Of a stretch of DNA of 64,000 bases, positions 38,760-47,409 are shown piece after piece. The translations under genes were made by a program, and so were the position numbers. The number at the start of each line of letters is the position of its first letter. Position 1 is the first letter of the stretch. Where the stretch lies: contig NZ_CP016033.1 in the NCBI RefSeq assembly GCF_001663175.1, positions 1,364,001 to 1,428,000 of the forward strand, written 5' to 3'. Source of the stretch: Erythrobacter neustonensis (GTDB lineage: Bacteria > Pseudomonadota > Alphaproteobacteria > Sphingomonadales > Sphingomonadaceae). The notes beneath the pieces were generated by a model that saw only the letters and a program-made list of their open reading frames with translations, did no database searches and was not told the DNA's origin.

Positions 38760-40880
38760 ATGCAAATCAATACTATGAAGTGCGCTCTCATGGGCGCAAC
38801 CATGCTTGCCGCAACGACTGGTGCCTTTAACGCCCCGCTCCACGCGCAGGGGATCGGCCAGCGGCAGGACGAGATCATCGTCACCGCAAGCCTTCAGGGC
38901 ACCCCCACGGCGCCCACGCCGGAGGCTGCCCGCAAGGAGCTCGAACGCGTCCCAGGCGCGACGGGGCTGGTGGAGGACGAAGGCTTTGCCGACATATTCG
39001 CTCAGTCGATCGGGGATGCGCTGGAGCTAACCCCCGGTGTCTTCGCCGACACCAGTGCCCCGCGTGAAAGCCGTATCTCGATCCGTGGGTCGGGCCTCAA
39101 TTCCAGCTTCGAACGGCGCGGCCTCACCGTGCTGCGCGACGGGGTGCCGATCAGCCGCGCATCGGGCGCGACCGAGTTTCAGGAGGTCGATCCGCTGACG
39201 GTGCGCTACATGGAGGTGTTCAAGGGCGCCAACGGGCTGCGCTACGGGGCGGCATCGCTGGGCGGGGCGGTCAATATCGTCAGCCCCACCGGGCGCACCG
39301 CCCGCGCCCCGCTCACCCTGCGCGCCGAGGGTGGCAGCTTCTCCACCTTCCGCGGCAATGCCTCCCTGTCGGGCAAGAGCGGCGATGTCGACTATTGGGG
39401 CGGGATTACCGGCCTCACCAGCGACGGCTACCGCGAACACAGCGAGGTGCGCAGCCTCTATGGCCACGGCAACCTTGGCTGGCGGGTGTCCGACAATATC
39501 GAGACGCGCTTCTACGTCACCGCGCTGTCGGACAATTTCGAGCTGGCGGGCAGCTTGCGCCTCGCCGATGCGCTCGCCAATCCGCGCGCAGCGGGTCGCC
39601 CAGTGCGGGCGGGACCGGTGGTCATCGATCCCGGCCCGGTGGCGGATGACTGGGACCGCAATCTCGACGTCTACCGCGTCTCGAACCTCACCGTAATCGA
39701 CCTCGGCGGAACCGATCTTGAGCTGGGCGCATGGTATGCGCGCCGCAATCTCGACCACGCGATCACCCGTTTTGCCGGGATCATCGTGCAGGGCGAGGAC
39801 GAGGTCGGCGTCTCCACGCGCCTCTCCGGCAGCCTCCCGTTCCTCGCCGATCGGAGCCGCTGGCAGGTCGGGGCGATCTATGCCTTCTCGAGCAATGACG
39901 CGAAGACCTTCGCCAACAATTCCGGCGCGCGCGGGGCGCTGCGCACGCAGTCCGATCAGGATTCGGACACGCTGACGGTCTATGGCCAGGCCGATCTCGG
40001 GCCGACCGACGCCGTCACTCTGATTGCAGGCGGACAATATGCCCGCGCCACCCGCGATGTGACCGCAATCCTCAATGCGGTGACGGGCCGGGGCGAGTAT
40101 GACCAGTTCAACCCGCGCGTCGGCCTGCTGGTGGATGCAGCCGAGGACATCCAGTTCTTCGGCAACATCAGCCGCAGCTTCGAAGCGCCCAGCCTTGCCG
40201 ATCTCACCAGTGGCGGAGCCTTCCCCTTCGCGCCATTGGACCCCCAGCGAGCGACCGTGTTCGAAGTGGGCACGCGCGGGCAGGCGGGGATCGTCTCGTG
40301 GGACGTCGCGCTTTACCGGGCGGAGCTGGAGAACGAGTTTCTCGACCTCGCCGTGCCGGGCGCGCGCGGACTGGTGACGGTGACGGCCAATGCCGACAAG
40401 ACCGTGCATCAGGGGCTCGAATTCGGGCTCGATGTGCGGCCCTTCAAGGCGACGCTGGAGAAGAACGGTCAGGCCCTGCGGCTGAGCGCGGCCTATACCT
40501 TCAACGACTTCGCCTTCGATGATGACGCGGTCTATGGCGATAACCAGCTTGCCGGGGTGCCGCGCCATGTGCTGATCGCCGAGGCGCGGTTCGATCAAGT
40601 GGACAGGTTCTACCTCTCCACCACCCTGCGCTGGATCCCTGATGGCCCGTTGGCGGACTATGCCAACACCGAGAGGGCTCCCGGCTACGAAACTGTCCAG
40701 ATCACCGCCGGGGTCACGCTGACCGAGGGGATCGAGCTGTTCGGATCGGTCGAGAACCTGTTCGACGAGGTGTTCATCTCCAACGTCACCACCAACGCCA
40801 ACCAGCGCCTCACCAACGAGGCGATCTACACCCCCGGGCAGGGCCGCGCTGTCTTTGGCGGCCTGCGCGCGCGGTTCTGA
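38760..40880 (+). CDS. TonB-dependent receptor, FecA/siderophore-like
   Basis: A 706-residue outer-membrane receptor. The signal peptide ends at LHAQ (about 30), with TonB-box-like DEIIVTAS at 37-44. The plug (about 60-190) contains SRISIRGSGLNSSFERRGLTVLRDGVPI and YGAASLGGAVNIVSP. The barrel ends in Phe (GLRARF). The plug signature RGSGL..ER.G..VL.DG is that of FecA/FyuA-type receptors. The next gene, a PepSY protein, starts 11 bp later, so iron or copper chelate uptake is the likely theme. Confidence 0.92.
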   Translation: MQINTMKCALMGATMLAATTGAFNAPLHAQGIGQRQDEIIVTASLQGTPTAPTPEAARKELERVPGATGLVEDEGFADIFAQSIGDALELTPGVFADTSAPRESRISIRGSGLNSSFERRGLTVLRDGVPISRASGATEFQEVDPLTVRYMEVFKGANGLRYGAASLGGAVNIVSPTGRTARAPLTLRAEGGSFSTFRGNASLSGKSGDVDYWGGITGLTSDGYREHSEVRSLYGHGNLGWRVSDNIETRFYVTALSDNFELAGSLRLADALANPRAAGRPVRAGPVVIDPGPVADDWDRNLDVYRVSNLTVIDLGGTDLELGAWYARRNLDHAITRFAGIIVQGEDEVGVSTRLSGSLPFLADRSRWQVGAIYAFSSNDAKTFANNSGARGALRTQSDQDSDTLTVYGQADLGPTDAVTLIAGGQYARATRDVTAILNAVTGRGEYDQFNPRVGLLVDAAEDIQFFGNISRSFEAPSLADLTSGGAFPFAPLDPQRATVFEVGTRGQAGIVSWDVALYRAELENEFLDLAVPGARGLVTVTANADKTVHQGLEFGLDVRPFKATLEKNGQALRLSAAYTFNDFAFDDDAVYGDNQLAGVPRHVLIAEARFDQVDRFYLSTTLRWIPDGPLADYANTERAPGYETVQITAGVTLTEGIELFGSVENLFDEVFISNVTTNANQRLTNEAIYTPGQGRAVFGGLRARF

Positions 40881-40891
40881 GGGAGGCAGCG

Positions 40892-42514
40892 ATGAGCATG
40901 AAGACCAAGACCGCGCGCTGGTCCTATTCCAAGCATCAATGGCTGGGGCTGATCGGCGGAGTCAGTCTGCTGGTGTGGGGCCTCTCCGGCCTCACCCATA
41001 TTGCCATGGTGCTGTTCGGCCCGCAGCAGGCGGCGTTCATGCCGCCTGCGGCCACGGTCGCGCTCGAAGGGGCGCGGCCGATTGCGCAGACCCTTGCAGA
41101 ACAGGGCATCGCCGGGGCGGTAGCGGTGAAGACCGTCCCCGCGCCCGGCGGCGGGGTGCTGTGGCAGGTTACCGCGGCAGCAGACGGCGCGCGGCGCTAC
41201 TTCCGCCCCGCAGACGGCAGCGAAGTAACCGGCGGTGACCGGGCGCAGGCCGAATTCCTCGCCCGCCACTACCTCGCAACTGACCGGCCGATCACTGCGG
41301 CACGGCTCCAGACCAAATTCGATGCCGACTACCCTTGGGTCAACCGCTTGCTGCCGGTGTGGAAGCTGGAGTTTGCGGGGGACGACGGCCTCACCGCCTA
41401 TGTCCACACCGAAACTTCCAGCCTTGCTGCGGTCAACAACACCACCAAGACCCGGCTGCAAAGCGTGTTTCGGGCGCTGCACACCTGGGAATGGGTGCCG
41501 CCGGGGATGGACTGGCTGCGGGTCATTGTGATCGCCCTGATGGTAGGGAGCCTGCTGGCGCTCGGCCTGACAGGGGTTGCAATGCTGGTGACGGTGCGGC
41601 GCAGGAAACGCCTGCCCGGCGCGCGCGGGTGGCACCGGATCGCAGGCTATGTGCTGGCGCTGCCGCTGATCATGTTCTCGGCTTCCGGGATCTACCATCT
41701 GATCCAGTCGGCGCTGGTGCCTCCGGTGAGCCAGCTCAAGATGGGGCGTCCCGTCAATGTCGCGAGCGGCAAGTGGCCGGTCGAGAAGGACTGGGCGCTG
41801 ATCGCCAAGGGGCGCGACATCGCCTCGGTCGCGCTGGTCGAGGGCGCGGGCGGGCAGCCACTCTACCGCATCGGCCTTGCCCCCAAAGGCCAGATGGGCG
41901 GGGGCGAGCATGACCACGGCCCGGTCAAGGCAGCGGCGGATCATGGCATGACAGGCCACGATCACGCTGCGATGATGGCAGCAGCGCAGGCCAAAGCCCC
42001 CACCACCGACGCCGAAATCCGCGAGGCGCGCTTTGCCGGGATCAAGCCCGATGGCCCTGCGATCTATCTCGATGCTGCAACCGGCAACGTGGTGTCCTCA
42101 GGCGACAAGGACCTCGCCCGCGCCACCGCCCGACGCTTCACCGGGGCGCCCGACAGCGCGGTGACGGGGGTGGAACTCGTCACCCGCTTCAGCCATGAAT
42201 ACGACTTCCGCAACAAGCGCCTGCCGGTCTGGCGGATCGATTACGGCGCGCCGGTCAACGCCAGCCTGTTCGTCGATACCGGCGCGGGCGTGCTGGTGGA
42301 TCGGGTGGCCGACGGCGAGAAGCCCGAACGCCTCGTGTTCAGCTTCATCCACAAGTGGAACTTTCTGTTCCCGGTCGGACGCCTCGCGCAGAACGTGATC
42401 GTGGGCGTGTTCGCCATTGCCCTCATCGGCCTAATGGCCATGCTGGGGCTACGGATGGACCTGATCCGCCGTCTCCGTGCAAGCCGCCACGGGCAGAGGT
42501 TGGAGCAAAAATAA
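40892..42514 (+). CDS. PepSY-domain membrane protein with His-rich loop
   Basis: A 540-residue inner-membrane protein of the PepSY-associated TM family, related to ferric/cupric reductases. Membrane segments lie at about 17-40, 206-232, 253-275 and near the C-terminus (AQNVIVGVFAIALIGLMAMLGL). SVFRALHTWEWVPPGMDW and GWHRIAGYVLALPLIMFSASGIYHL supply His residues suited to heme or metal. The periplasmic region 333-370 is His/Asp/Met-rich (GEHDHGPVKAAADHG, TGHDHAAMM), a probable metal-binding loop. It follows the receptor by 11 bp. Confidence 0.88.
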   Translation: MSMKTKTARWSYSKHQWLGLIGGVSLLVWGLSGLTHIAMVLFGPQQAAFMPPAATVALEGARPIAQTLAEQGIAGAVAVKTVPAPGGGVLWQVTAAADGARRYFRPADGSEVTGGDRAQAEFLARHYLATDRPITAARLQTKFDADYPWVNRLLPVWKLEFAGDDGLTAYVHTETSSLAAVNNTTKTRLQSVFRALHTWEWVPPGMDWLRVIVIALMVGSLLALGLTGVAMLVTVRRRKRLPGARGWHRIAGYVLALPLIMFSASGIYHLIQSALVPPVSQLKMGRPVNVASGKWPVEKDWALIAKGRDIASVALVEGAGGQPLYRIGLAPKGQMGGGEHDHGPVKAAADHGMTGHDHAAMMAAAQAKAPTTDAEIREARFAGIKPDGPAIYLDAATGNVVSSGDKDLARATARRFTGAPDSAVTGVELVTRFSHEYDFRNKRLPVWRIDYGAPVNASLFVDTGAGVLVDRVADGEKPERLVFSFIHKWNFLFPVGRLAQNVIVGVFAIALIGLMAMLGLRMDLIRRLRASRHGQRLEQK

Positions 42515-42745: not shown

Positions 42746-45100
42746 TCAGGCACGCAGCTGGCGTTGATATCCTGCACCGTCGCGCAGCAGGCCGGTGACG
42801 GCATCCGCGGCGACCGGGCGCGAGAACAGATAGCCCTGAATGTTCTGGCAGCCCTCGCGCTCCAGCACTTCGAACTGGGTGACGTCTTCCACGCCCTCGG
42901 CCAGCGTCTCCATCCCCAGCGCCGCCGCCAGCATGGTGATCGCGCGGATCACCGCATGGCCGTTGCCGCTGGTGCCCAGATCCTCGACGAAGCTCTTGTC
43001 GATCTTGACCTTGTCGAAGGGGAAGGAGCGCAGATAGCTGAGCGAGGAGTAGCCCGTCCCGAAATCATCGAGCACGATTTTCACCCCGAGAGTGCGCAAG
43101 GAGTGCAGCGTCGCTAGCGTCTGATCAACGTCGGCGGTGAAGATGCTCTCGGTGATTTCCAGTTCCAGCCTATGCGCGGGCAAGCCGCTCGCCGAAAGGG
43201 CGGACAGCACTGTGTTGGCAATGCCGGTGGCGGTGAATTGCTTCGGGCTGACATTGACCGCCACCGAAACATCGGCGGGCCATGTGCTCGCCTGATGGCA
43301 CGCCTCGCGCAGCACCCATTCGCCGATCGGGATGATCAGGCCAGATTCTTCGGCAAGCGGAATGAACTCGAGCGGGCTGATCGGCCCGCGCACAGGATGA
43401 TTCCAGCGGATCAGAGCCTCGAAACCGGTCAGGCGTCGTTTCTCCAACGAGTAAAGCGGCTGGAAGTTAAGCTCGAACCCTACGCCCTTGATCGCATCAC
43501 GCAGATCGCGCTCCAGACGAATGCGCGCGCGTTCAGCTTGGTCGAGCGAGGGCGCGAAGAAGTGGTATTGTGCCTTGCCCTCGTGCTTCGCATGGTAGAG
43601 CGCAAGATCGGCGCGTTTCATGAGAGTTCCGACCCGATGACCGTCAGCAGGGGCCACTGCAATGCCTATGCTGGCCGAACAATTGGCCTTTCGACCCTCG
43701 TCAGTGATCGCCGCCGCGATACTTTTCTGAAGTGCCTCGGCTTGTCGCTGGAGACTTTCCCGGCAAGCCTGCAAATCGAACAATATGGCGAACTCGTCAC
43801 CGCCGAAGCGGGCAATGAGTGCATCGCTGAAATCACTGCGCAACTGCTGACCTACCTCTCGCAGCAGCGCATCTCCCGCTGGATGGCCGAACTTGTCATT
43901 GACCGTCTTGAAGTTATCAAGATCGACGAATGCAAGCATGAGCTGGCTGTCCGAAATGTCTTGCGACAACCTCGCTTCAAGCCGTTCGATGAACAGCTTG
44001 CGTGACGCCAGTCCTGTCAGGCTATCGTGAAGCTCGAGCTGTATCTGTCGTTCGCGCTCTTTGATTGCAGCAATCATCTGGTTGAAGCTCTGCGCGAGCC
44101 GCCCGATCTCGTCATTGGTCGTGATCGTCAGGTTGGCCTTGCGTCCCTCCCCGATAAGCCGGGTCGCCTCGTCAAGCTGCTGAAGCGGTTCGGTGACTGA
44201 GCGCGCGACTTTCCAACTGAGCCCCAGAACCAGCACGATGCCGCCTGCTGCCAGTAGGGCCAGCCACCACTTGAGGCTGGCATAGGCGGCCAGTGATTGC
44301 GCCAGATCGTGGCGCAGCACCAGCCGGGGGGCGATGCCGTCTTGCAGCACGGCAAGATCGGAGACGTGATAGAGGAAGCGCTCGCCTTCGGCTTCGCGTT
44401 CGAACACGGCATTGGCCGCCGCGCCGCGCAACCATTCGGGCTGGGAGCCAGCTTCGGCGACCTGTGCCTCAAGCGCGATGGGAGCGAGTTCGACGAGGCG
44501 GTCAAGCTCGGCGCGGTCGAGCGGCTGGGCGATCACCAGCCAGCCGATCAGGTCGGGCGCTTCGATGGGGGCGGCAGCGGCGAGCGCTAGGCCCTCGTCG
44601 GACGCGATGATCCCGCGGGTGCCACCGCCATCGAGGCGTGCCCACAGGGTCTCGGGTGCGGGCACCCCGCGCGCGTCGGCGGCGAGCACCTCGCCCTCCA
44701 GCGTCAGCACGAAAGCCATGTCGCTGCGCACCCGCTCCTGAAGGCTGGCAAGGGCGCTGGCGATGGTCGGTGCGTCGTCAGTCGCCACCGCCTCACGAAA
44801 GCCGAAATCACGCGCGAGCACGCCTGCCTGATCGCCCATCTGCCGCGCGCGGGCAGCGAGGATTTCGTCGAACACGCGGGCATTGGCGGCCAGATCGCGC
44901 GCCGCGCTCGCCTCGCCAAAGCGCGACAGGCCCCCGGCGGCGAGGGATACGACCACGCCGAGCACCACGGCGAACAGGCCGGCGTAGAGCATTGCAATGC
45001 GCGTGCTGAGCGCACCGAAAGGCAGCGCGGCGAGGTGTGCGAGGGTGCGTGCGAGGGGGCGTGCGAGGGTGCGTGCGAGGGCGTGCGGGCCTGAGCTCAT
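42746..45100 (-). CDS. Membrane GGDEF-EAL cyclic-di-GMP enzyme
   Basis: A 784-residue inner-membrane protein. Membrane spans at about 36-56 and 276-296 enclose a periplasmic sensor domain of about 220 residues (CACHE/CHASE4-like by layout). HAMP (297-349), GGDEF with intact RFGGDEF (431-437) and EAL with intact GFEALIRWNHP (559-569), ITESIF and DDFGTGYSSLSYL follow. Both catalytic motifs are complete, so it could make or degrade c-di-GMP. The start overlaps the cupredoxin stop by 4 bp. N-terminal LARTLARPLARTLA is encoded by a 12-bp tandem repeat. Confidence 0.93.
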   Translation of the reverse strand: MSSGPHALARTLARPLARTLAHLAALPFGALSTRIAMLYAGLFAVVLGVVVSLAAGGLSRFGEASAARDLAANARVFDEILAARARQMGDQAGVLARDFGFREAVATDDAPTIASALASLQERVRSDMAFVLTLEGEVLAADARGVPAPETLWARLDGGGTRGIIASDEGLALAAAAPIEAPDLIGWLVIAQPLDRAELDRLVELAPIALEAQVAEAGSQPEWLRGAAANAVFEREAEGERFLYHVSDLAVLQDGIAPRLVLRHDLAQSLAAYASLKWWLALLAAGGIVLVLGLSWKVARSVTEPLQQLDEATRLIGEGRKANLTITTNDEIGRLAQSFNQMIAAIKERERQIQLELHDSLTGLASRKLFIERLEARLSQDISDSQLMLAFVDLDNFKTVNDKFGHPAGDALLREVGQQLRSDFSDALIARFGGDEFAILFDLQACRESLQRQAEALQKSIAAAITDEGRKANCSASIGIAVAPADGHRVGTLMKRADLALYHAKHEGKAQYHFFAPSLDQAERARIRLERDLRDAIKGVGFELNFQPLYSLEKRRLTGFEALIRWNHPVRGPISPLEFIPLAEESGLIIPIGEWVLREACHQASTWPADVSVAVNVSPKQFTATGIANTVLSALSASGLPAHRLELEITESIFTADVDQTLATLHSLRTLGVKIVLDDFGTGYSSLSYLRSFPFDKVKIDKSFVEDLGTSGNGHAVIRAITMLAAALGMETLAEGVEDVTQFEVLEREGCQNIQGYLFSRPVAADAVTGLLRDGAGYQRQLRA
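45045..45080. repeat. 12-bp tandem repeat at the start of the GGDEF-EAL gene
   Basis: GTGCGTGCGAGG, GGGCGTGCGAGG, GTGCGTGCGAGG are three head-to-tail units (45045-45080), with partial units on both sides. It encodes the repeated LAR(T/P) tetrapeptide in the cytoplasmic N-terminus. The 12-bp period keeps the frame, so copy number could vary without breaking the gene. Confidence 0.85.
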
Positions 45101-45735
45101 CGCACAGCAACCGTGAGCTTGTGATTCTGGTTGCCTCCGGTCACTGTGATCGCCGAAGCGCTCTCATTGTCCGGCGCGCGCAGGGCCGGGTGCCAAACCG
45201 TCAGCCGCGCCGCGCCGCCCGCCATGCCGCTGAGCGTGACATAGCCGTTGTGGTCGGTCTTGGCGGCAAAGGGCGTGTCGGTCACGCGGATATAGCCGCG
45301 CATCTGATCGTGGATATTGCACCCCAGCTTGACGCTGCCGGTCACGGTGAAGGTGTGGGTGCGGGTCTGATCGCGGCCGTAAAGCTCGATCTCGAAACGG
45401 GCGGGCTTGGAAAAGGAATAGATCGAATGGCGCACATTGTCGAGATTGGGGAAGGCCACCGTGCTGCCTCTCGCGACGATTAGCGTGCCAGGAGAGAATT
45501 GCTGGTTTTTCTGCCCCATGCCCATTTTCCAGGGGAAGCGGATCGCGCCCACGGGGGCCTTGCTGGTATGCAGTTCGACCACGGCATCGCGCACCGGCAA
45601 ACCATTGCCATCGACCACCTGGACCCGCAAGGCAGCGGGCGTGGCGGCGGCGACGGCCACCACCCCGCCAGTCGCGATGCCAAGGATAGCGACAAAGGCG
45701 GCAGATGCGGTGCGAGAGGGCAAGTACAAGCGCAT
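45097..45735 (-). CDS. Periplasmic cupredoxin-like protein (annotated elsewhere as methylamine utilisation protein)
   Basis: A 212-residue exported protein. After a signal peptide (about 1-31), a beta-sandwich with LRVQVVDGNGLPVRDAVVEL leads to a type-1 copper pattern: His103 in NVRHSIYSFS and C139-x2-H142-x2-M145 in LGCNIHDQMRGYI. A second beta domain (about 152-212) is carboxypeptidase-regulatory-like. Related proteins are often called methylamine utilisation proteins, but no mau genes are here. It overlaps the GGDEF-EAL gene by 4 bp and is the first gene of that operon. Confidence 0.85.
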   Translation of the reverse strand: MRLYLPSRTASAAFVAILGIATGGVVAVAAATPAALRVQVVDGNGLPVRDAVVELHTSKAPVGAIRFPWKMGMGQKNQQFSPGTLIVARGSTVAFPNLDNVRHSIYSFSKPARFEIELYGRDQTRTHTFTVTGSVKLGCNIHDQMRGYIRVTDTPFAAKTDHNGYVTLSGMAGGAARLTVWHPALRAPDNESASAITVTGGNQNHKLTVAVR

Positions 45736-45829
45736 GATCTTTCGCTATTTCTAGCCCTGACCTCTTAAGATTCCCTCGCCATGCGGTTTAAGTGAGATTT
45801 ACTATTTGCAGCTAATTGCTGGAGTAATG

Positions 45830-46852
45830 ATGCAATCGCTCGCCTCCCTGATGGCGCTGACCGCTGCTGCTGCCGCGCCTGAGCCTGCGCCCCACATCGC
45901 CTATGCCCCGGTGCTCGATGCGAATGATGTGGCCGGATCGCCTGCAATTCCCCCTGTCCCCCTGCCGCTTGATGCCGCGCCCACGCAGCGCGCTCTCGCT
46001 CCGCTCGGCGAGGTGACTGCACTTGGCAATGAAGGCGTGCGGATCGGCAAGGTCGATGTGCTGGCGGGCGGAAAGTTGCTGCTGACCAATGGCGTGACCA
46101 CGGTCGAGGGCTCATCGGGCGGCGGGCTTGCCCGCTGGGCGACCATCGGCGGGCGACAGATGGCAGGCGGTGTGGGGCTTTCGGCCCATGCCACGGCGAT
46201 CGAATTGCCCGACTTCGGCTGGCGTTCCTACGGCGTGCTGCTGGGGCTGGGCGACCGGCTGGAGCTGAGCATTGCACGCGCGGATTTCGACACACGCGAC
46301 GTGGGTGCCTTGCTCGGGATCGGGCAGGGCTACACCTTCAACCTCGACACCTTCGGCGCGAAGTTGCGGGTGGCGGGCGATGTCGTCTATGGCGACACAT
46401 GGCTGCCGCAGATCGCGATCGGCGCGGAACACAAACGCAGCCGTGACGGCGCTTTGGTGCGCGCCTTGGGTGCGAGCGAGGCGAGCGGGACGGACTACAC
46501 CCTCAGCGCCACCAAGCTACTGCTGGCGCAAAGCCTGCTGATCAATGGCACCCTGCGCTACACCAAGGCGAATGAACTGGGCCAGCTTGGCTTCGGGTCT
46601 GCCAATGCCGGCTACCATGTGCAGTTTGAAGGATCGCTGGGTTACCAGCTGTCGCGCCGCGGGGTGATCGGGGTCGAGTATCGCACGAAGCCGGACAATC
46701 TCGGCCTTGGCGATGATGACTGGATGGACCTGTTCGCCACCTACGCGCTGACCGATCAGCTGACCTTGACGGCGGCCTATGTCGATCTGGGGTCGATTGC
46801 CACCGTCTCCGATCAGCGCGGCGGGTTCCTGTCCGCGCAGGTCGCATTCTGA
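45830..46852 (+). CDS. DUF3034 family protein (predicted outer-membrane porin-like)
   Basis: A 340-residue exported protein. The signal peptide is MQSLASLMALTAAAAA. The mature part is a series of amphipathic strands (GGRQMAGGVGLSAHATAIEL, YGVLLGLGDRLELSIARADFD, LRVAGDVVYGDTWLPQIAIG, GVIGVEYRTKPDNLGLGDDDWMDLFATY) ending in Phe. The GLGDDDWMDLF block is typical of DUF3034. ATG at 45827 or 45830; GGAG lies at 45821-45824, and 45830 gives the better spacing. It is divergent from the cupredoxin gene and 20 bp upstream of the haemoglobin gene. Confidence 0.85.
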   Translation: MQSLASLMALTAAAAAPEPAPHIAYAPVLDANDVAGSPAIPPVPLPLDAAPTQRALAPLGEVTALGNEGVRIGKVDVLAGGKLLLTNGVTTVEGSSGGGLARWATIGGRQMAGGVGLSAHATAIELPDFGWRSYGVLLGLGDRLELSIARADFDTRDVGALLGIGQGYTFNLDTFGAKLRVAGDVVYGDTWLPQIAIGAEHKRSRDGALVRALGASEASGTDYTLSATKLLLAQSLLINGTLRYTKANELGQLGFGSANAGYHVQFEGSLGYQLSRRGVIGVEYRTKPDNLGLGDDDWMDLFATYALTDQLTLTAAYVDLGSIATVSDQRGGFLSAQVAF

Positions 46853-46872
46853 CACTCGGGAGCTGTGCCACC

Positions 46873-47409
46873 ATGCTGCTGATCACTGCAACTGCCGCCG
46901 CGCTGATGCTGCTGCAACAGGCCCCTGCCGAGGGCACCGATTGGGATGCCGAATTCGGGGTCGAAGTGAAGGATCGCGACCCGGTGACAGGCGAGCTGCC
47001 GGTCGATCCCTACCCCCAGTCCAACGCCAATGCCGGCGCTGCTCCCTACAACAGCGCGCCGCTGGTCGAGGCTTTCGGTGGGCGCGAGGGAATCCGCCGG
47101 ATCGCCGAGCGCACGGTCGATCTCAGCGAAGCCGATCCACGCATCGCCGCAATCTTCGAAAGCCATGACATGGTGCGCTTGAAGCGCACGCTCTCCGAAC
47201 AGTTCTGCTTTCTGCTCGGCGCGGGCTGCGACTATACCGGACGCGACATGCGCGCTGCCCATGCCGAAATGGGTGTGACCAAGGCCGACATGAACGCGCT
47301 GGTCGAGAACCTGCAGGTTGCGATGCGTGAGGCAGGCGTGCCCTTTGCCGCGCAGAACCGCCTGCTGGCCAAACTTGCGCCGATGTCAGGCAAGGTGGTG
47401 ACCCGCTGA
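46873..47409 (+). CDS. Exported group 1 truncated haemoglobin
   Basis: A 178-residue protein with an N-terminal hydrophobic segment (about 1-20), probably a signal peptide or anchor, a 40-residue linker, and a truncated globin domain (about 62-178): FGGREGIRRIAERTV, IAAIFESHDMVRLKRTLSEQF, GAGCDYTGRDMRAAHAEMGV. His130 is the proximal heme ligand. Cys112 and Cys119 could form a disulfide in the periplasm. Most truncated haemoglobins are cytoplasmic, so export is unusual. It is likely to bind O2 or NO. The second gene of the DUF3034 transcript. Confidence 0.88.
   Translation: MLLITATAAALMLLQQAPAEGTDWDAEFGVEVKDRDPVTGELPVDPYPQSNANAGAAPYNSAPLVEAFGGREGIRRIAERTVDLSEADPRIAAIFESHDMVRLKRTLSEQFCFLLGAGCDYTGRDMRAAHAEMGVTKADMNALVENLQVAMREAGVPFAAQNRLLAKLAPMSGKVVTR

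Follow-up and report, generated by a model that had tools for sequence, protein, structure and literature searches.

To our knowledge, it is largely open how the enzymes of cyclic di-GMP (c-di-GMP) are reached by gases and by the redox state beyond the inner membrane. Among the closest described systems, YfiBNR has a regulator-receptor core that is described as highly modular in the available part of PMC3375315, which also gives variants with GGDEF-EAL and with histidine kinases. For NbdA and MucR, which are implicated in nitric oxide (NO)-mediated dispersion, the accessible text of PMC9683572 gives the proposal that the MHYT domain senses O2, carbon monoxide (CO) or NO through copper. Here we describe a set of four genes in the window, a stretch of 64,000 nucleotides of Erythrobacter neustonensis (positions 1,364,001-1,428,000 of a 3.09-Mb genome on a single contig, whose nearest named relatives are Erythrobacter and Porphyrobacter). 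The genes encode a cupredoxin-like protein, a membrane GGDEF-EAL receptor, a DUF3034 protein and a truncated haemoglobin (trHb; here denoted the globin). No published account of this gene set was found in a search that left most subscription-journal papers and bioRxiv preprints outside. We consider it on balance probable that the set is a tripartite envelope signalling module, consisting of an outer-membrane module, a periplasmic cupredoxin and an inner-membrane receptor whose conserved output is c-di-GMP hydrolysis.

The receptor and cupredoxin genes overlap by 4 base pairs (bp) and are read leftward; the globin gene lies 20 bp downstream of the DUF3034 gene, and both are read rightward. An earlier note on this DNA had described exactly this divergon, which was confirmed at the coordinates given there, overlap and gap included. 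The features are as follows.

42746..45100, minus strand: receptor, 784 amino acids, with a transmembrane segment, a periplasmic dCache_3/CHASE4-like domain, a second transmembrane segment, HAMP, GGDEF and EAL (Pfam; transmembrane segments by eye)
44201..45013, minus strand: sensor region of the receptor, residues 30-300, query A4 of the searches, with a family signature around D-F-G-F (alignment)
43571..44032, minus strand: GGDEF domain of the receptor, residues 357-510, motif intact (Pfam and motif listing)
42815..43510, minus strand: EAL domain of the receptor, residues 531-762, with 8 of 8 catalytic or metal residues present (Pfam and residue check)
45097..45735, minus strand: cupredoxin-like protein, predicted exported, 212 amino acids, with a type-1 copper-like domain (signal peptide by eye)
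45427..45429, minus strand: codon of cupredoxin His103, first putative copper ligand (alignment)
45301..45321, minus strand: cupredoxin ligand loop C139-x2-H142-x2-M145 (alignment)
45736..45805, no strand: divergent intergenic region, 70 bp (intergenic alignment with relatives)
45806..46852, plus strand: DUF3034 (PF11231) protein, 348 amino acids, ending in Phe, with a probable outer-membrane location (Pfam)
46873..47409, plus strand: globin, 178 amino acids, group-I trHb of an exported family (Pfam and profile)
47206..47229, plus strand: globin Cys112 to Cys119, a nearly invariant pair and putative disulfide (alignment)
47260..47262, plus strand: codon of globin His130, aligned to the proximal haem ligand (alignment)

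The DUF3034 open reading frame (ORF) starts at TTG, with in-frame ATGs at 45827 and 45830. A second complete four-gene divergon is found in the same genome at ~2.845 Mb (G000:C1, about 2,844,100-2,848,800; L015, 6120-10761), its proteins 72-80% identical to those of the window set.

To follow the four families, profiles were built from sequences that were hand-selected to be diverse and to start cleanly: A1 from 35 of 71 cupredoxin ORFs, A2 from 34 of 78 DUF3034 ORFs, A3 from 37 of 75 globin ORFs and A4 from 35 of 63 receptors. Searches for all four were run over 397 genomes drawn evenly from the phylum and compared by coordinates. The cut-offs were set after the lists had been seen, at 113 bits or more for the cupredoxin (next match 94.8), 51 or more for the sensor (35.9) and 138 or more for the globin (109.1); a second sensor piece in G198 (35.9 bits) was left out, and three DUF3034 pieces on contig C3 of G118 were entered as one. 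Fisher p-values for this comparison take no account of common descent and were not relied on. The earlier note had taken the four genes for one module and pointed to co-occurrence across genomes as its check, which came out in its favour. DUF3034 was found in 46 of the 397 genomes and 30 of 231 genera, and these 46 genomes carry the globin in 46 cases, the cupredoxin in 45 and the sensor domain in 44. At 47 of 48 places the globin lies within 1 kb of DUF3034; within 5 kb, the cupredoxin is found at 41 places, sharing the strand of DUF3034 at 31 and divergent from it at 10, and the sensor at 39. Four genomes (G221, G229, G253 and G372) keep both the DUF3034-globin and the cupredoxin-receptor pair at separate loci. 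Thus the four-gene grouping is strongly conserved and not due to chance, recurring beyond its own genome in Erythrobacteraceae-type genera, Caulobacter, Phenylobacterium and other families of the phylum.

Named loci gave the same picture. All four families are present on the fetched stretch in 26 of 27 named DUF3034 loci, which belong to Erythrobacter, Porphyrobacter, Allopontixanthobacter, Alteripontixanthobacter, Caulobacter, Phenylobacterium and metagenome-assembled genomes. The exception (L031) has a contig edge just past DUF3034 and a receptor split into two frames; elsewhere, one receptor is cut by a contig end (L019) and another belongs to a neighbouring second cupredoxin (L038). In one relative (L010) DUF3034-globin is solitary on 14 kb, and within the genus the module is patchy, with DUF3034 in 6 of 25 genomes, the window's own included. 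Among 46 phylum loci (L073-L118), cupredoxin, receptor, DUF3034 and globin follow one another on one strand in 27, a divergon of the window type is seen in 6, DUF3034-globin stands alone in 5, and 8 are arranged otherwise. One of the one-strand loci (L115) is from Pseudomonas, judging by the names of near-identical DUF3034 proteins, and the divergons sit in genomes of the window's own family or class; we therefore infer that the divergon is the alphaproteobacterial form and the one-strand operon that of gamma- or betaproteobacteria.

Comparison of the pairs refined the module to a core of cupredoxin and receptor, which exists without DUF3034-globin and with outputs beyond c-di-GMP enzymes. The sensor is present in 60 of 62 cupredoxin genomes and the cupredoxin in 60 of 61 sensor genomes. 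In 55 of the 70 places with a cupredoxin, a sensor match on the same strand begins no more than 300 bp downstream of it. Instead of a GGDEF-EAL receptor, the cupredoxin neighbour can be a class III adenylate/guanylate cyclase (L153), a Ser/Thr kinase (L154 and L089) or a histidine kinase (L163, L176 and L177; in L176 the two genes are ~1 kb apart). With the sensor profile these proteins scored 201 bits (L153), 187 (L163), 57 (L176), 52 (L154) and 20 (L177), and L089 gave 58.5 with A4. For dCache_3, L153, L154 and L089 passed the cut-off, L163 gave a match under it, and L176 and L177 gave none. The D-F-G-F-region signature, with six invariant positions in 35 rows of GGDEF-EAL receptors, is recognisable in L153 and L163 and not in L089, L154, L176 or L177.

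The receptor of the window matched EAL (score 249, cut-off 31.3), GGDEF (129.9, 23.8), HAMP (42, 25), CHASE4 (32.3, 26.2) and dCache_3 (29.2, 25.7), and these domains, together with the catalytic residues, support the earlier assignment of a periplasm-facing membrane GGDEF-EAL receptor tied to c-di-GMP. That it sets the c-di-GMP level, as had also been suggested, needs refining as to direction. In the 63 receptors that adjoin a cupredoxin (L012 and L029 being one locus), all eight EAL residues checked, catalytic or metal-binding, are intact in 63 of 63, and the literal GGDEF motif is intact in only 31, the window copy among them. The conserved enzymatic output of the family, as read from these residues, is therefore c-di-GMP hydrolysis and not synthesis. 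An RxxD inhibitory site was not seen by eye at the expected spacing in the window's GGDEF domain. In Porphyrobacter sp. AAP60 (L023, 2093-7554), one cupredoxin is flanked by two GGDEF-EAL receptors, the second of which is ~67% identical to the window receptor.

The cupredoxin scored 13.7 against Copper-bind (PF00127; cut-off 21.2) and hence resembles the superfamily without being a member of that Pfam family. Structure matches with the single window sequence were weak, and the family profile reached the CuNIR cupredoxin domain (E 2e-7), 5fc9 (E 2.6e-5) and amicyanin (E 0.0017). His103, Cys139, His142 and Met145, the ligands named in the earlier note, occur without change in every one of the 72 rows of the alignment (the window counted twice; L012 and L029 one locus). 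This ligand set and the profile similarity predict a type-1 (blue) copper site. The C-terminal part has sub-threshold matches to CarboxypepD_reg and fn3_3. Relatives bear the public names 'plastocyanin', 'methylamine utilization protein' and 'carboxypeptidase regulatory-like domain-containing protein'; no backing was seen for the second, though methylamine genes were not searched for.

The window globin matched Bac_globin (PF01152) with 37.7 against a cut-off of 21. The proximal His130 is present in 75 of 76 globin rows, the single exception being an X, and the Cys112/Cys119 pair is nearly invariant (L038 lacks both, L022 has X letters); all three residues are invariant in the 37 rows of A3. 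Positions 82, 103 and 107, which we mapped to B10, E7 and E11 from structure alignments, are V, L, I, M, A or F in all 76 rows apart from one N at 82, and distal hydrogen-bond donors of the Tyr B10/Gln E11 type, as in high-affinity NO-dioxygenase trHbs, were not found in these rows. The best structure match of the globin profile is 2GL3, which the available part of PMC11904497 gives as the Y(B10)F/Q(E11)V variant of HbN. The same text associates hydrophobic distal residues with low O2 affinity suiting O2 transport and storage, and in the accessible part of PMC4720485 hydrophobic pockets go with rapid O2 release and a likely role in storage or transport. Since the three positions are hydrophobic, high-affinity O2 binding is unlikely. 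The lack of donors speaks against an NO-dioxygenase type or one with high affinity for O2 and does not single out NO; judged from the pocket, NO, CO, ambient O2 and peroxide are candidate ligands.

N-termini of the globins were judged by regular expression and by eye, without a signal-peptide program. A lipobox was scored in 20 of 37 (L113 judged false, L074 missed), and the others look Sec-like; those of the Erythrobacter type, the window's included, are hydrophobic and free of basic residues. The family thus appears to be exported, often as a probable lipoprotein, so that the earlier description of an exported trHb holds for many relatives and less clearly for the window copy. Strong globin matches in genomes without DUF3034 occurred in 2 of 48 genomes, at G311:C2:1726251-1726673 and G184:C30:832566-832970. 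Another genome carries DUF3034-globin twice (G118:C1 and C3; L113 and L118), with one in-frame stop per gene in the C3 copy.

The DUF3034 protein scored 280.4 against its Pfam model (cut-off 25). Members end in F, Y or W in 29 of 34 cases and are free of Cys after residue 40 in 32 of 34; the description 'barrel-like' is plausible, and DUF3034 is probably an outer-membrane barrel. A search of the PDB with the DUF3034 profile gave no relative, matching only Ika8 and Ika4, which we judged spurious (single Ika8 segments, E 45 to 53). In the literature, DUF3034 was met in two papers, and the one passage checked, a retron figure legend naming DUF3034 and DUF3037, was unrelated to the family. Beside the cupredoxin, DUF3034-globin alternates with a protein family of ~410 amino acids that is not detectably related to DUF3034. 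Within 3.5 kb of 101 cupredoxin ORFs we found DUF3034 for 69, the ~410-residue family for 18 and both for 1 (L038); as these loci were selected by cupredoxin or DUF3034 and include close relatives and one duplicate locus, the counts are not population frequencies. The alternative family ends in F, Y or W in 14 of 18 cases; its L175 member has a sub-threshold Porin_4 match, and five other members were scanned without a match. A neighbour of 375 amino acids in L089, outside that family, has Porin_5 above cut-off. We infer an outer-membrane location for both families, and DUF3034-globin is best described as a second, separable pair, replaceable by another putative outer-membrane protein.

Some loci combine these parts in other ways. 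In Phenylobacterium aquaticum (L038, 2638-9273) two cupredoxin systems lie back to back, cupredoxin, receptor and ~410-residue protein facing cupredoxin and DUF3034-globin. In L152, L160, L162, L164, L165 and L175 the cupredoxin stands beside the ~410-residue putative outer-membrane protein with no adjoining receptor, and in the first three of these the unit follows proteins of 764-797 and 226 amino acids that by eye resemble an iron-uptake pair. At the window locus, a TonB-dependent receptor gene followed by one for a PepSY_TM protein (38760-42514) is convergent with the receptor gene. This is a common iron-uptake pairing. As parts of the module the two genes were rejected, being unmatched in seven related loci; the TonB receptor had just one weak match (L027) among the 27 named loci. 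In the divergent intergenic region, TTAA and GGTTTA segments are partly conserved among relatives (alignment over window 45736-45830), and none of the conserved segments in this alignment is assignable to a known site. In L033 and L036 the region has TTAACCAT, which resembles the alphaproteobacterial CtrA half-site.

The proposal of an envelope signalling module is built on gene content, ligand conservation, near-obligate co-occurrence, the swapping of outputs and of the outer module, the export signals of the globin family and the intact EAL residues. The cupredoxin would be the dedicated periplasmic partner of the inner-membrane receptor, and DUF3034, probably an outer-membrane barrel, would form with the exported globin an outer module feeding it. 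Haem chemistry at the globin, with NO, O2 or another oxidant, might alter the amount or the redox or copper state of free cupredoxin, which would then bind the Cache-like domain of the receptor; the HAMP segment would relay the signal and change phosphodiesterase activity. A fall in c-di-GMP would favour motility or dispersal. Physical contact between cupredoxin and receptor and the placement of DUF3034 in the outer membrane are deduced from these patterns, and we can only speculate on the redox relay, on which way the control runs and on what the signal is. Of the periplasmic copper/NO/O2-sensing module put forward in the earlier note, the module and the periplasm-facing receptor are therefore retained, and copper, NO and O2 are candidate signals, as is redox state. 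A bolder idea, which we offer tentatively as a possibility, is a new receptor family with a blue-copper protein as ligand; its redox state, set by haem chemistry at an exported and often lipid-anchored globin beside an outer-membrane protein, would be read by a Cache-like domain joined to c-di-GMP phosphodiesterase, nucleotide cyclase, Ser/Thr kinase or histidine kinase outputs.

Several observations weigh against the proposed signalling module. The genome with two DUF3034-globin copies (G118) has neither cupredoxin nor sensor. Of 70 cupredoxin places, 12 lack a sensor within 3 kb, and of 70 sensor places, 10 lack a cupredoxin within that distance; two cupredoxin genomes are without a sensor, and near 13 of the 101 cupredoxin ORFs neither outer module is found. 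The kinase inputs are in part weakly related, L176 and L177 having no Pfam input domain and 57 and 20 bits. The window receptor might also synthesise c-di-GMP, because its GGDEF motif is intact, and the signal peptide of the window globin is atypical, with no Lys or Arg in the n-region. Apolar trHb pockets are linked to O2 transport or storage in the available parts of PMC11904497 and PMC4720485. A crude amphipathic-strand test was uninformative for DUF3034 (mean z 0.21; cupredoxin 1.70, eight other putative outer-membrane proteins 1.54, sensor 0.19, globin -0.55). Distances at 56 loci with all four genes and a single adjacent receptor (the duplicate L029 removed) correlate for every pair, including cupredoxin-sensor (0.849), sensor-DUF3034 (0.835) and cupredoxin-DUF3034 (0.833). 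The partial correlation is highest of ten pairs for cupredoxin-sensor (0.355), a weak support, since EAL domain-DUF3034 (0.352) nearly equals it.

The same genes could also form a periplasmic detoxification or electron-transfer unit, in which the cupredoxin would reduce the exported globin, the globin would remove NO, peroxide or another oxidant, DUF3034 would admit the substrate, and the receptor would sense the same stress independently and merely be co-expressed. Redox pairing of cupredoxins with haem proteins is typical and globin-DUF3034 is a near-obligate pair, but the cupredoxin tracks the sensor and not the globin: it accompanies the sensor in genomes that lack DUF3034-globin, and it also stands beside kinases and the cyclase. 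The globin pocket moreover lacks the hydrogen-bond donors of NO dioxygenase-type trHbN, and we regard such a unit as unlikely. We hold it to be quite unlikely that the system senses copper, the apo or holo state of the cupredoxin reporting periplasmic copper, with a side role in copper or haem handling for globin and DUF3034. The invariant H-C-H-M site and the tight pairing with the receptor would fit, but a type-1 electron-transfer site is unusual for copper-sensor chemistry; beyond the four families and the ~410-residue one, only five more recur, in 5-8 of 92 compared loci, and these may include copper genes.

An adaptor role, with the cupredoxin presenting an imported ligand (such as a sugar or a chelate of iron or copper) from the outer-membrane protein to the Cache domain and copper being structural, would agree with the 88 of 101 cupredoxin ORFs that lie within 3.5 kb of DUF3034 or the ~410-residue protein, in loci chosen by cupredoxin or DUF3034, and with the sub-threshold matches at the cupredoxin C-terminus. 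It leaves unexplained both the exported globin of the DUF3034 form and the strict conservation of all four redox-type ligands, and appears very unlikely to us. Hardly any credence goes to loose genomic clustering without joint function; patchiness within the genus would suit it, but the order is conserved across many genera and the sets are retained together when split between loci. An envelope signalling module, as proposed above, would bring under one testable function four families whose annotation is poor: the 'methylamine utilization protein', the DUF, the exported globin and the orphan sensor domain. Through it, a metalloprotein would provide an input to c-di-GMP and, where modules are swapped, to other outputs. 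Caulobacter is one of the environmental bacteria concerned; the Pseudomonas fluorescens group is also among the carriers, by the names of near-identical DUF3034 proteins. If the redox part is true, an envelope-spanning redox relay would end in a second messenger.

Compared with described proteins, the cupredoxin shares the C-x2-H-x2-M loop and the upstream His with amicyanin and the CuNIR cupredoxin domain, but at ~212 amino acids it has an extra C-terminal part and a conserved W-H-P, and its gene neighbour is a signalling receptor. In LapD-LapG, as far as the partial account available to us goes, a GGDEF-EAL receptor likewise has a periplasmic protein partner. LapD is catalytically inactive, whereas the EAL catalytic residues of the receptor here are intact; the LapD model scored 144.1 against a cut-off of 1020, and membership was rejected. 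The globin resembles the TrHbN-2 class (e.g. HbN of Shewanella benthica) in its hydrophobic B10, E7 and E11, for which the accessible text of PMC11904497 expects low O2 affinity, but it belongs to an apparently exported family, often of probable lipoproteins, with a nearly invariant Cys pair and a tie to DUF3034. MHYT enzymes are also c-di-GMP enzymes with proposed copper-based sensing, according to the available part of PMC9683572; there the proposed copper is in the enzyme's own domain, whereas here it is predicted in a separate exported protein, and a Pfam scan of the four proteins gave no MHYT match. The same scan gave no YfiR-, YfiB- or OmpA-type match, the NCBIfam YfiN model matched residues 288-505 alone with 161.2 against a cut-off of 325, and membership in YfiBNR was rejected. 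In its layout the module nonetheless comes close to YfiBNR of Pseudomonas (receptor TpbB/DgcN), where, in the text of PMC3375315 available to us, an outer-membrane component, a periplasmic regulator and an inner-membrane HAMP receptor control c-di-GMP; in both systems the regulator-receptor core has swapped outputs. The module differs in having a cupredoxin as periplasmic partner, in a conserved output that would be phosphodiesterase activity, and in including an exported haemoglobin. We thus read the module, by analogy, as working like YfiBNR without homology to it.

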